Both the position numbers and the translations under genes were made by a program. Below, one piece after another: positions 33,042 to 36,206 of a DNA stretch of 64,000 nt. Source of the DNA: an uncultured Atopobiaceae bacterium (GTDB lineage: Bacteria > Actinomycetota > Coriobacteriia > Coriobacteriales > Atopobiaceae); contig CALUNW010000005.1 in assembly GCA_944322145.1 (NCBI GenBank), positions 157,334 to 221,333 of the forward strand, given 5' to 3'. The number at the start of each line of letters is the position of its first letter. The first letter of the stretch is position 1. The notes under the pieces are model-generated. The model saw only the letters and a list, made by a program, of their open reading frames with translations, was not told where the DNA came from and made no database searches.

Positions 33042-34070
33042 ATGTCCATGAAGTTCAAGCGTCTCCTGCCCATCCCCAAGGACATCCGCGCCGAGATGCC
33101 CCTCTCGGCCGAGATGACGGCCCGCAAGGCATCCTTTGACAGGGGCGTCTCCGACGTGCTCTCCGGGCGCGATGATCGTCTGCTGCTCATCATCGGCCCG
33201 TGCTCCGCGGACCGAGAGGACTCGGTGCTGGACTACGCCACGCGCCTGGCCAAGCTCGCCGAGACCGTCAAGGACCGCCTGCTCGTGATTCCGCGCGTCT
33301 ACACCAACAAGCCGCGCACCAAGGGCACCGGCTACAAGGGCCTGCTCCACAACCCCAACCCGGAGGCGGCCGATGACCTGCTCGAGGGCGTCAAGGCCAT
33401 CCGCCGCATGCACCTGCGCGTGGTGGAGGAGACGGGCATGTTCACCGCCGACGAGATGCTTTACCCCACTAACTACCAGTATCTCATCGACCTTCTGGCC
33501 TACATCGCGGTGGGCGCGCGCTCCGTCGAGAACCAGGAGCACCGCCTGGTCGCGTCCGGCGTTCCCATGCCGGTGGGCATGAAGAACCCCACGGGTGGCT
33601 CCACCGACGTCATGCTCAACTCCATCTACGCCGCCCAGCAGCCGCAGACCTTCATCTTCCGCAACTGGGAGGTTTCGACCACGGGCAACCCGCTCGCGCA
33701 CGCCGTGCTGCGCGGCTACGTGGGCCTCGATGGGATCAACTACCCCAACTACCACTACGAGTACCTCGAGCGCCTGGCCGAGAAGTATACGGCGGCCAGC
33801 TTCGAGAATCCCGCGGCCGTCATCGACTGCAACCACGACAACTCCGGCAAGCGCCCGTTCCAGCAGATCCGCATCTGCCACGAGGTGCTCGACTCGATGA
33901 GCCGCTCGGACACGATCCGCCGCCTCGTGCGCGGCTTCATGGTCGAGTCCTATCTTGTGGACGGCAACCAGCCGGTGACCGGCTCCACCTACGGCCAGTC
34001 GATCACGGACGCGTGCCTGGGCTGGGACAAGACCGAGCGCCTGGTCAAGGAAATTGCCGAGCGCGCGTAG
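33042..34070 (+). CDS. aroF: 3-deoxy-7-phosphoheptulonate synthase, class I
   Basis: First enzyme of the shikimate pathway: phosphoenolpyruvate plus erythrose 4-phosphate gives DAHP. The 342-residue protein has the class I signatures LLIIGPCSADRED (phosphoenolpyruvate site), IPRVYTNKPRTKGTGYKGL, the lysine and metal regions GARSVENQEHR, VGMKNPTGGSTDV, and the metal-binding CNHDNSGK and VESYLVDGNQP. ATG at 33042 lies six bases after GGAGG; the longer open frame upstream crosses the promoter. It is a single gene ending at a strong terminator. The isozyme symbol (aroF, aroG or aroH) and feedback specificity cannot be read from the sequence. Confidence 0.94.
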   Translation: MSMKFKRLLPIPKDIRAEMPLSAEMTARKASFDRGVSDVLSGRDDRLLLIIGPCSADREDSVLDYATRLAKLAETVKDRLLVIPRVYTNKPRTKGTGYKGLLHNPNPEAADDLLEGVKAIRRMHLRVVEETGMFTADEMLYPTNYQYLIDLLAYIAVGARSVENQEHRLVASGVPMPVGMKNPTGGSTDVMLNSIYAAQQPQTFIFRNWEVSTTGNPLAHAVLRGYVGLDGINYPNYHYEYLERLAEKYTAASFENPAAVIDCNHDNSGKRPFQQIRICHEVLDSMSRSDTIRRLVRGFMVESYLVDGNQPVTGSTYGQSITDACLGWDKTERLVKEIAERA

Positions 34071-34095
34071 GTGAGCGCCTGCCCAGCCGGGAACT

Positions 34096-34124
34096 CAGGG
34101 GGTCTATCTGACCCCCTGTTTTTT
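34096..34124 (+). terminator. Intrinsic terminator of DAHP synthase
   Basis: CAGGGGGTC, TATCT loop, GACCCCCTG then TTTTTT: a 9-bp stem and uninterrupted T tract 25 bases after the stop. It insulates the following RNA/rhuM locus from upstream transcription. Confidence 0.93.
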
Positions 34125-34134
34125 GAAATTCACT

Positions 34135-34162
34135 AGAACAAATGTTTGTGTTGTGGTAGACT
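34135..34162 (+). promoter_or_regulatory. Possible SOS (LexA) box with extended -10
   Basis: AGAACAAATGTTTG (34135-34148) matches the Gram-positive LexA box CGAACRNRYGTTYC at 12 of 14 positions, including both GAAC and GTT cores. Nine bases later TGGTAGACT gives an extended -10 (TAGACT at 34157-34162); no good -35 is visible, so the box would sit over the polymerase site. This suggests DNA-damage control of the following RNA and rhuM, as an inference. Confidence 0.45.
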
Positions 34163-34179
34163 CGTATCACGGTATGACC

Positions 34180-34360
34180 GCGGGCGAGAGCCGCACGGAG
34201 GCCCCCAATGGTACGTGCGCGCGGGATGGTCAGGGGTAACAGGGACTGACCACGCTGGCCCGCCTTCAGGCAGGTGGTACCCCTGCTTGCCGGCACCTGA
34301 ATCAAAGCCGGCACTCACATGTCAGTGGACGTTGCGTTCCGTGAGTGAAGCGGGGGCCTG
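34180..34360 (+). ncRNA. Structured RNA leader or small RNA of unknown class upstream of rhuM
   Basis: Several helices can be read directly. A closing helix pairs AGGCCCCC (34199-34206) with GGGGGCCT (34352-34359). Within it lie TGGTCAG/CTGACCA (near 34227-34253), GCAGG/CCTGC around GTGGTACC (near 34270-34286), GCCGGC/GCCGGC (near 34289-34312) and CACTCAC/GTGAGTG (34312-34347). A GCGG/CCGC hairpin precedes the closing helix. The 3' strand of the closing helix is GCGGGGGCC, the only possible ribosome binding site for the rhuM ATG at 34364, so folding would hide it. I do not recognise the RNA class. A T-box-like GGTGGTACC occurs but the rest of a T-box is absent. It could be a regulatory leader or an independent small RNA. 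Confidence 0.6.
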
Positions 34361-34363
34361 ATC

Positions 34364-35323
34364 ATGGCTGAGTTTGTTGGCATACATGCCGATAAGAACA
34401 TTGAGCCCGTGGGCGAGATCGTCCTCTTCGAGTCATCTGATGCGGAGGTGCGCCTTCCCGTCAATCTGGAGGATGACACCGTATGGCTGTCTCAGGCACA
34501 GATGGCGGAGCTGTTTGGGCGCAGCGTCGCCGTTGTATCGCGTCACATCGCCAATGTGTTTGCGGAAAAAGAGCTGGTAAAGGCAGGCAATTTGCATTTT
34601 TTGCATATTGCTGGGGCATCTAAGCCGGTCGCCTTCTACAGCCTCGATGTGATCATCTCGGTGGGGTATCGCGTGAAGTCCCAGAGGGGCGTTGAGTTCA
34701 GGCGCTGGGCAACGGACGTGCTGAGGCGCTACGTGCTCAAGGGGCATGTCGAGAGCGAGCGCAGGCTCCGGCAGCTGGGCATGGTGGCGAGGGTCATCGA
34801 GCGCATCCCCGATGACGTGGGAGCGCGAGAGATCCTTGACATCGTGGAGAGCTATACGAACGCGTTCGACCTGCTCGACCAGTATGACCGAGCAACGGTG
34901 ATGCGGCCCCGAGGGACCGGCGCGACCTTCAGGCTTGACTATGAGGAATGCGTCACCCTCATCGGAAAGATGCGCGGACGCTTTTCGAGCGACCTGTTCG
35001 GCGTGCCGAGAGACGAGTCGTTCAAGAGCAGCGTTGCGGTCGTCTATCAGTCATTTGAGGGGAAGGAGCTCTATCCGACGGCAGAGGAGAAGGCTGCCAA
35101 CCTCCTCTATCTCGTCATCAAGAACCACAGTTTTCTCGACGGCAATTAGCGCATCGCGTGCGCCCTGTTTCTCTACTTCCTCGAGAGAAACGGGCTGCTC
35201 TTCCGCGGGCTCGACAAGCGGATATCGGATACCACGCTCGTAGCGGTTGCCCTCATGATCGCAGAGTCCCGACCGGAGGAGAAGGAATCTATGGTGGCGC
35301 TCGTGATGAACTTCCTGGCGTAG
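34364..35323 (+). pseudogene. rhuM: RhuM family protein with Fic domain, interrupted by an amber codon
   Basis: The first 261 codons encode a RhuM protein: DNA-binding-like N-terminal half with VWLSQAQMAELFGRSVAVVSRHI (residues 43-65, in parts) and the signature VAFYSLDVIISVGYRVKSQRGVEFRRWA, then a Fic-fold C-terminal domain. The frame stops at TAG 35147-35149, then continues open for 57 codons to TAG 35321: ...NHSFLDGN-stop-RIACALFLYFLERNG.... Intact homologues have HPFxDGNKRxxxxLF, so the stop replaces exactly the motif lysine (AAG to TAG is one change). The full product would be 319 residues, normal for the family. It could be a nonsense pseudogene or an amber read-through case; Fic enzymes usually transfer nucleotide groups, but RhuM activity is unproven. 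Confidence 0.85.
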
Positions 35324-35345
35324 GTGGTGACGGTGCGCAATTCGG

Positions 35346-36158
35346 CTACCTGCCGCGCTCGGCGCGGCGCGCGGCGCGCGCCGCGAGGGCCACCTGGCGC
35401 AGCTCCTTGGCGCGCGCCGGCTTCATCGCGGGCACGCCCTTGAGCGGGTACTCAAGGCCCAGCTTCTCGTACTTGGGCTTTCCCATGGTGTGGTAGGGGA
35501 GCAGGTCGAGCCCAACGACGTTGTCCCAGTTCCCGATGATGCGACCGACTGCGGCGACCTCCTCCTCGGAGTCGGTGATGCCGGGGACCACGACGTGGCG
35601 GATCAGCGTGGGGATGCGCCGGCGCGCGAGCTCGTCGCCTAGCTCGAGGGCGTGGCTCGCGGGCAGCCCGCAGAGCTCCTCGTGGCGCGCGGCGTCGGAG
35701 GTCTTGATGTCCAGGAGCACCATGTCGGTGGCGTCGAGAAGCGCGGAGAAGCGTGCGGCCCCCGCCGCGGAATAGGTGGCGCCAGAGGTGTCCAGGCAGG
35801 TATGGATGCGTCCGGCGGGGGCTGCGTGGGCGGCGCGGAACAGGGCGGCCACGAAGTCGGGCTGCGCCATGGGCTCGCCGCCGGTGACCGTGATGCCGCC
35901 GGTGCGGTAGAAGGGGCGGTTGCGCTCGTAGCGCTCGAGGAGCTCCCCCACGGTCACGCTGGTGCCGGGGCCCGTGCCGTCGGCGCGGGCGAACTCCCAG
36001 GTGTCGGGGTTGTGGCAGTACTGGCAGCGCATCGGGCAGCCTTGGCAGAACACCACGAACCGCGTGCCGGGCCCGTCCACCGTCCCAAAGCTCTCGGTGG
36101 AGTGAACCCTCCCGATCACGTCGACGTCCCGCACGTTCTTCTCGGTACCCACAGTCAC
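35346..36158 (-). CDS. pflA: Pyruvate formate-lyase activating enzyme
   Basis: Radical SAM enzyme that places the glycyl radical on pyruvate formate-lyase. The protein (about 270 residues) has FCQGCPMRCQYCHNPDTW, containing CxxxCxxC for the 4Fe-4S cluster, then ITVTGGEPMAQPDF (SAM-binding GGEP), CLDTSGATY, LLDIKTSD and HVVVPGITDSEEEV. Two GTG starts are possible; 36158 is preferred because GGAAGG lies seven bases upstream, while 36173 has no binding site. Genes on this strand run pflB, glycyl-radical domain, pflA, with a hairpin before pflA that may lower its expression. Confidence 0.92.
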   Translation of the reverse strand: MTVGTEKNVRDVDVIGRVHSTESFGTVDGPGTRFVVFCQGCPMRCQYCHNPDTWEFARADGTGPGTSVTVGELLERYERNRPFYRTGGITVTGGEPMAQPDFVAALFRAAHAAPAGRIHTCLDTSGATYSAAGAARFSALLDATDMVLLDIKTSDAARHEELCGLPASHALELGDELARRRIPTLIRHVVVPGITDSEEEVAAVGRIIGNWDNVVGLDLLPYHTMGKPKYEKLGLEYPLKGVPAMKPARAKELRQVALAARAARRAERGR

Positions 36159-36206
36159 ATCCGCACCTTCCACCCAGACATGTCATACAACCATGATAGA
36201 CAGAAC

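Follow-up and report, generated by a model that had tools for sequence, protein, structure and literature searches.

Within the window, that is, the whole stretch of 64,000 nucleotides analyzed here from an uncultured Atopobiaceae bacterium, a small unit lies between a DAHP synthase gene, which an intrinsic-terminator-like hairpin follows, and a radical-SAM gene (33042-36173). In order, the unit comprises a LexA-type box, a -10-like TAGACT, a structured RNA some 195 nt long, and a rhuM-Fic gene (Table 1). The radical-SAM gene owes its label, pflA, to its domains and to an adjoining pyruvate formate-lyase-like open reading frame. The rhuM frame stays open for 57 further codons, to 35322, past the TAG in its FIC motif; the window rhuM carries this stop codon and is probably inactive. 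Intact relatives exist, for example at locus L034. The unit is accessory in the genus: among the 29 DAHP synthase loci read there (a partial one, L253, was excluded), 27 lack the rhuM gene, the RNA core, and the box, rhuM is present in two, and pflA lies within 1.5 kb of the DAHP synthase gene in 24. At the orthologous locus of a near relative (genome G101, L031/L225), the LexA-type box and the -10 element are kept, whereas a pair of GGGCGAGA repeats encloses no leader and no gene start; what is left of the gene, close to the end of a contig, is a truncated remnant.

Table 1. Features of the box-RNA-rhuM unit and its neighbors (SD, Shine-Dalgarno sequence)
Feature	Position	Strand	Basis and remarks
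DAHP synthase gene	33042-34070		upstream neighbor of the unit
Intrinsic-terminator-like hairpin and T run, downstream of the DAHP synthase gene	34096-34118	+	1 in 34000-34450, 0.4 expected in shuffles
LexA/SOS-type box GAACAAATGTTT	34136-34147	+	sequence; box type common to relatives
-10-like TAGACT	34157-34162	+	sequence and alignment with relatives; transcript start expected near 34168
Structured leader RNA, start codon included	34168-34366	+	covariance-model match across all 197 model positions, 159.1 bits (the window leader is itself part of the model's alignment)
P1, 5' strand	34176-34188	+	pairs with 34255-34267; covariation on 30 and 42 sequences
P2 core hairpin (hp1)	34191-34221	+	covariation; loop 34198-34213 GAGGCCCCCAATGGTA near-invariant
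P3 hairpin TGGTCAG/CTGACCA	34227-34252	+	covariation, window pairing
P1, 3' strand	34255-34267	+	pairs with 34176-34188; covariation on 30 and 42 sequences
P4 hairpin GGCAGG/CCTGCT, predicted "open" state	34269-34287	+	covariation; own versus swapped partners, 0/10,000
P7, anti-SD strand CCCCTGCTT	34280-34288	+	overlaps P4 3' strand; pairs with 34348-34356
P5 hairpin GCCGG/CCGGC	34289-34312	+	covariation, window pairing
P6 hairpin CTCAC/GTGAG	34314-34345	+	covariation, window pairing
P7, SD strand AAGCGGGGG	34348-34356	+	SD 34352-34356; alternative partner hp1 loop CCCCC 34202-34206
rhuM-Fic ORF, 261 aa	34364-35149	+	TAG 35147-35149 ends the ORF inside the FIC motif
Radical-SAM gene, labeled pflA		opposite to rhuM	downstream neighbor of the unit

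The family of structured leaders to which the RNA in the window belongs has 54 distinct members. The covariance model of this family matched 54 places, in 44 of the 395 genomes of the order and 13 of its 123 genera, and the core-loop pattern with at most one mismatch was found in 33/395 genomes, its reversed control in none. A core match was kept in the catalog if it showed at least three contiguous stem pairs or a box; the stem criterion alone retains 51 members, 50 with a box and 46 with a strict box, and L196, L200, and L202 were admitted through the box. Blastn with the window region gave matches in 21 of the 140 genomes of the family Atopobiaceae, its own genome counted, although part of these are short stretches only and one, L023, is not the RNA. 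Across a collection of 84,980 species, 32 stretches carried an exact match to the core pattern, 31 of them from Coriobacteriia (Collinsella, Olsenella, Thermophilibacter, Atopobium, and other Coriobacteriaceae/Atopobiaceae); the other, from Acidobacteria (L032), has neither the stem nor the box and was dropped as a chance match. By these searches, the leader was found only in Coriobacteriia. No match was obtained with the exact core pattern in viral contigs or with blastn of the window leader against plasmids and phages, where diverged copies could still occur. A second copy of the RNA is present in the genome of the window itself (L002/L176; G000:C1:226494-226689, minus strand).

The first-pass annotation had described the RNA as unclassified, and comparison with all Rfam 15 models, raiA and T-box included, agrees with this: nothing reached the gathering score for the window or for 10 related loci, and with E values up to 10 only pntA and adapt33_3 appeared, at chance level and far under their cut-offs. 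Among the matches listed in our literature search, none describes this leader. The excerpted texts of PMC8040213, a paper with thousands of candidate RNAs, and of PMC2864571 do not mention it; an unannotated entry in the supplements is possible.

The leader consists of a closing helix, P1, that encloses the hairpins P2 and P3 and is followed downstream by P4, P5, and P6. P1 is formed in the window mostly by GCGGGC (34180-34185) and GCCCGC (34258-34263), and P2 to P6 pair fully or nearly so. At least four internal hairpins had been drawn before; five are present, together with this enclosing helix. Folding energy proved uninformative as a test, with a z score of -0.52 for the window (63 of 200 shuffles fold equally well) and a mean of -0.28 over the 54 relatives, so that the lone sequence could not settle the structure.

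Covariation among homologs was informative. In a MAFFT alignment of 30 sequences, drawn from the 43 sites then cataloged, two-sided changes were seen in 25 of 51 pairs, which comprise P1 to P6 and the 8-bp helix of the first-pass annotation, compared to 10.6 +/- 2.1 after shuffling (0/500) and 7 to 11 when the pairs were slid. An alignment of 42 of the 54 members, fitted by the model to P1 to P6 and thus biased towards them, gave 36 of 46 pairs (a total that counts three empty pairs from the inner hp1 helix columns, off by one), compared to 18.9 +/- 2.4 shuffled (0/500) and 9 to 17 slid; permutation tests, here and below, remove relatedness only in part. Supplied with no structure, RNAalifold recovered parts of P1, P2, P4, and P5 as well as a helix inside the hp1 loop, left out P6, and paired the P3 region differently. 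In 99.2% of cells the inner hp1 helix (34201-34203 with 34210-34212) is paired, seven sequences have U-A in place of C-G, and the stem around the loop has been rewritten repeatedly (GCACG/CGTGC, TTTC/GAAA, CTTC/GAAG, ATGC/GCAT, GCGCC/GGCGC). Judged from these alignments, P1, the five hairpins, and the inner hp1 helix covary, and the structure stands far beyond chance. Visual inspection suggested another pseudoknot, joining the P5 loop to the bases ahead of P4, but as only L001 and L005 showed it, it was dropped.

The region upstream of the RNA adds two elements that the first-pass annotation had omitted, the LexA-type box and the -10-like site. Strict boxes (GAAC-N4-GTTY or RAAC-N4-GTTC) precede the core in 49 of the 54 leaders, at -53 to -64 and once at -85, the latter being the second box of L055; if one deviation is permitted, boxes are found in 53/54, at -50 to -65, against a background of 0.014 per 70 nt in all fetched DNA. 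In the genus, the same box type precedes lexA at all 30 loci read (-76 to -80 relative to the lexA match) and recA at all 28 (-105 to -111 relative to that of recA; the partial matches L152 and L153 were left out). On account of its position and this company, we regard the box as SOS-type, and binding of LexA and induction of the leader by DNA damage can be inferred from it. The loose pattern TANNNT occurs 24 to 45 nt upstream of the core in 52/54 leaders, while a scan with the sigma-70 consensus scored no promoter in the window region; no terminator-like site was found between the box and the ATG of the window.

As a control served 20 rhuM/DUF1016 genes of the same order that lack the RNA. 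None has the core, and the box is present in 4/20, in strict form in 3/20, compared to 49/54 for the leaders (Fisher, 1e-8). RNA and box thus tend to co-occur, and the box is also found without the RNA. Three of the four boxed control loci carry tandem boxes close to the start codon. The DUF1016/YhcG loci L218, L219, and L222, which lack the RNA, have two tandem LexA-type boxes, at about -30 and at -46 to -59 from the start, possibly a transcriptional alternative to an RNA lock. The SD also differs: GGGG is found in the SD region of 41/54 leaders (with the start codons of L041 and L197 mis-picked) and in none of the 15 control genes with a readable SD, all 15 of which contain GGAG (5 of the 20 loci were unusable because the start was not found or the wrong ORF was taken).

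What follows the leader varies. Of the 54 members, 23 precede DUF1016/YhcG genes (6 of these are short remnants only), 14 rhuM-Fic genes, 7 genes of a family here termed SYQES, 3 a family of 428 to 493 aa, and 1 a single other protein; 6 had no reference match. The leader is thus conserved before rhuM-Fic genes other than that of the window, but the unit of RNA and RhuM proposed in the first-pass annotation did not hold up as such, since the leader also precedes DUF1016/YhcG, SYQES, and other genes; what stands of the proposal that the RNA controls or works with a RhuM-Fic protein is that the leader precedes such genes and is predicted to occlude their ribosome binding site. Conversely, rhuM and YhcG_C matches occur in 125/395 and 138/395 genomes of the order, and the RNA is present at only a subset of these genes. 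PADLOC lists DUF1016/YhcG as PDC-S02 and RhuM-Fic as PDC-S23/S05, both candidate defense families and not tested systems. The intact downstream proteins read measure 171 to 493 aa. SYQES proteins (171 to 279 aa) are encoded behind compact leaders (L055, L064, L156, L158, L200-L202), which are described below; their representatives gave no Pfam hit above the cut-off and were matched in neither PADLOC nor NCBIfam, one member has 11 homologs among 5.8 billion proteins, and an AlphaFold model (mean pLDDT, 73.5) found no PDB match at an E value of at most 0.001. No Pfam family matched the 493-aa protein.

Further genes were noted near copies of the RNA. Behind the second copy in the window's own genome, a frame (LVAPDIDRLL...) is open for up to 471 aa. 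Frames related to it follow the RNA in L017, L025, L028/L060, and L029, and a similar protein of 458 aa, encoded behind the RNA in L057, was matched by neither Pfam nor PADLOC nor NCBIfam. In L026, L027, L030, and L054, the RNA adjoins AbiEi/AbiEii-like genes, and in L026 and L027 a short DUF1016 5' remnant is also present.

The first-pass annotation had pointed to a single purine-rich site before the ATG and had proposed that an 8-bp helix conceals it as the ribosome binding site. GGGGG at 34352-34356 is indeed the sole SD-like site within 20 nt of the ATG at 34364, and its occlusion is predicted: SD bases are 12% unpaired on average in a nested ensemble prediction over the 54 leaders, an average that includes two mis-picked start codons (L041 and L197). 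However, the helix that covaries and is predicted to be the main cover of the SD is not the one drawn but P7, which has 9 bp in the window. P7 strands pair better with their own partners than with swapped ones (mean, -18.8 versus -17.1 kcal/mol; 0/10,000 permutations; 37 distinct strand pairs). In a control for relatedness, the anti-SD segment was set against 15 windows along the leader, and the effect was confined to the two that contain the SD (differences of -1.99 and -2.06, 0/2,000 each; the other 13 range from -0.51 to +1.12). Alignment columns of P7 hold 26 cells with two-sided changes, compared to 14.2 +/- 4.1 shuffled (0/500); other measures are weaker, namely pairs with two-sided changes (45/500 shuffles) and further pair types (263/500), and P7 fits weakly (-8.8 to -13.1 kcal/mol) in 9/42 leaders, those of the L165 type and L061. 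Where the SD has another sequence, the anti-SD strand matches it, as in L192 (CAGGAGTGC with GCGCTCCTG), L195 (CAGGAGCGC with GCGCTCCTG), L199 (GGAAGCGGGT with ATCCGCTTCC), and L196 (GGGGCGC with GCGCCCC).

P4 passed the same swapping of partners (0/10,000; 29 distinct pairs). It has six columns in common with P7, and as both helices claim one strand they are mutually exclusive, a layout as in a translational switch. Thus, in leaders of the full type, two mutually exclusive helices are predicted, one of which covers the SD. Twelve compact leaders are without the P4/P5 module, and a switch between P7 and P4 is impossible there.

With some reserve, and at slightly less than even confidence, we favor the view that the leader behind the LexA-type box acts as a two-state translational gate, in which P7 holds the SD until a putative trans-acting factor would favor P4. 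At the sequence level, this is based on the order of the elements, on covarying P1 to P6, and on the complementarity of the P4 3' strand to the SD with joint changes. LexA would repress at the box, and leader and gene would be transcribed after DNA damage. P7 would be the default state, with the SD closed at rest, and translation would be the step under control. A trigger might act at the junction of P1, P2, and P3, which is conserved, and at the near-invariant hp1 loop, whereupon a shift of the fold from P7 to P4 would free the SD. Two locks would in this way keep potentially toxic nuclease or Fic genes silent, permitting translation only if a second signal arrives together with DNA damage. 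Against this view stand the measures that give P7 little support, the compact leaders without the P4/P5 module, the LexA-type boxes before relatives that lack the RNA, and the absence of a scored sigma-70 consensus promoter; moreover, a leader whose sole effect is to damp translation could do without a second state.

An alternative that we consider rather unlikely is a ligand-free damper, in which sequestration of the SD is permanent and the 30S subunit first lands on a distant standby site, here the hp1 loop, and then unwinds the structure up to the true start. It has a precedent in Escherichia coli tisB, a LexA-repressed toxin mRNA with a sequestered ribosome binding site that depends on 5' structure and on a standby site located about 100 nt upstream, according to excerpts of PMC7708055, and the hp1 loop offers GGAGG in 44/54 and AUG in 48/54 leaders. 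However, the tisB standby site is single-stranded, whereas the GGAGG of the leader is predicted to sit in the loop of a closed hairpin rather than in an open stretch. Moreover, hp1-loop bases that the ribosome does not read are no less conserved than GGAGG and AUG, the AUG is replaced by CUG, GUG, or ACG in 6/54, and P4 would be left without a role. A leader peptide starting in the hp1 loop (GGAGG, 6 nt, AUG) was likewise considered and rejected: given the six leaders without AUG and a frame that varies from 3 to 52 codons, with one case lacking a stop within 100, no leader peptide is conserved.

The 8-bp helix of the first-pass annotation is present in the window as drawn (34199-34206, AGGCCCCC, with 34352-34359, GGGGGCCT), and as a pseudoknot between hp1 loop and SD it might itself be the main lock, which we regard as improbable. 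Loop and SD can form at least four contiguous G-C pairs in 42/54 leaders, a count that again includes the mis-picked starts of L041 and L197, compared to 0/15 homologs without the RNA, and 8/12 compact leaders have the loop as the best partner of the SD. Although feasible in most leaders, the helix shows no covariation in the main class (own versus swapped, 1,905/10,000), it shrinks to about 3 bp in L192-L195, L198, and L199, which have other SDs and keep P7, and in the compact class the same comparison gives only 354/10,000 at n = 12, where statistics are weak. As the main lock it was rejected.

Highly structured, provided with its own promoter-like region, and located directly 5' of toxin-like genes, as ToxI is of toxN, the RNA might also function independently or as an RNA antitoxin acting on the encoded protein. 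This seems very improbable to us: the RNA is common to unrelated protein families, a distribution that fits a regulator better than the partner of one protein, it has no tandem repeats in the window (34100-34400) and no Rfam match, and the sole terminator-like site in 34000-34450 precedes it. Least probable of all is that the TAG-interrupted rhuM, the remnant between repeats in G101, and the 27 DAHP synthase loci without the unit reflect a decaying mobile cassette with a leader that is functionless in this genome, since the nearly complete pairing of P2 to P6 and the 9-bp P7 argue against a decayed leader and intact genes follow the same leader elsewhere.

Returning to the two-state gate, it is tempting to speculate that the leader represents a new class of regulatory RNA devoted to defense, in which box and leader together form a portable cassette of SOS promoter and switch that Coriobacteria place before unrelated nuclease, Fic, and other effector genes and that would yield defense protein only upon damage plus a signal sensed by the RNA; we put this forward as possible but on balance doubtful. 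If true, an RNA switch common to unrelated defense-like genes would define a regulon at the level of RNA, comparable to riboswitch-controlled metabolic genes. It would also provide a handle on the stimulus of the candidates PDC-S02 and PDC-S23/S05, as the factor opening P7 would be the trigger of defense. Furthermore, the leader may serve as a marker to locate effectors without known domains, such as the SYQES family.

Among known systems, orphan translational riboswitches share with the leader a covarying junction, a near-invariant loop, and exclusive helices, one hiding the SD; the structure of the 5' leader described here is conserved, covaries, and resembles an aptamer. They regulate metabolic genes, whereas our leader precedes in part defense- or toxin-like genes, follows an SOS-type box, and was found only in Coriobacteriia by these searches. 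In type III toxin-antitoxin systems (ToxIN), tandem RNA repeats lie upstream of a ToxN-type ribonuclease. ToxI, named in the excerpts of PMC8040213, likewise is a structured RNA directly 5' of a toxin-like gene, but the proteins encoded here are not ToxN-like and vary from locus to locus (RhuM-Fic, DUF1016/YhcG, and others). The closest studied case found is tisB-istR1 of E. coli. To judge from the same excerpts on tisB, the leader resembles it in LexA control (here a LexA-type box), a long structured leader, a sequestered ribosome binding site (here predicted), a toxin-like product, and a distant upstream SD-like site. It differs in sequence and fold, in that one leader serves several gene families, and in that these encode large nuclease, Fic, and other proteins (171 to 493 aa), whereas TisB is a small membrane peptide; the Coriobacteriia leader is thus partly like tisB without being a member of its kind.
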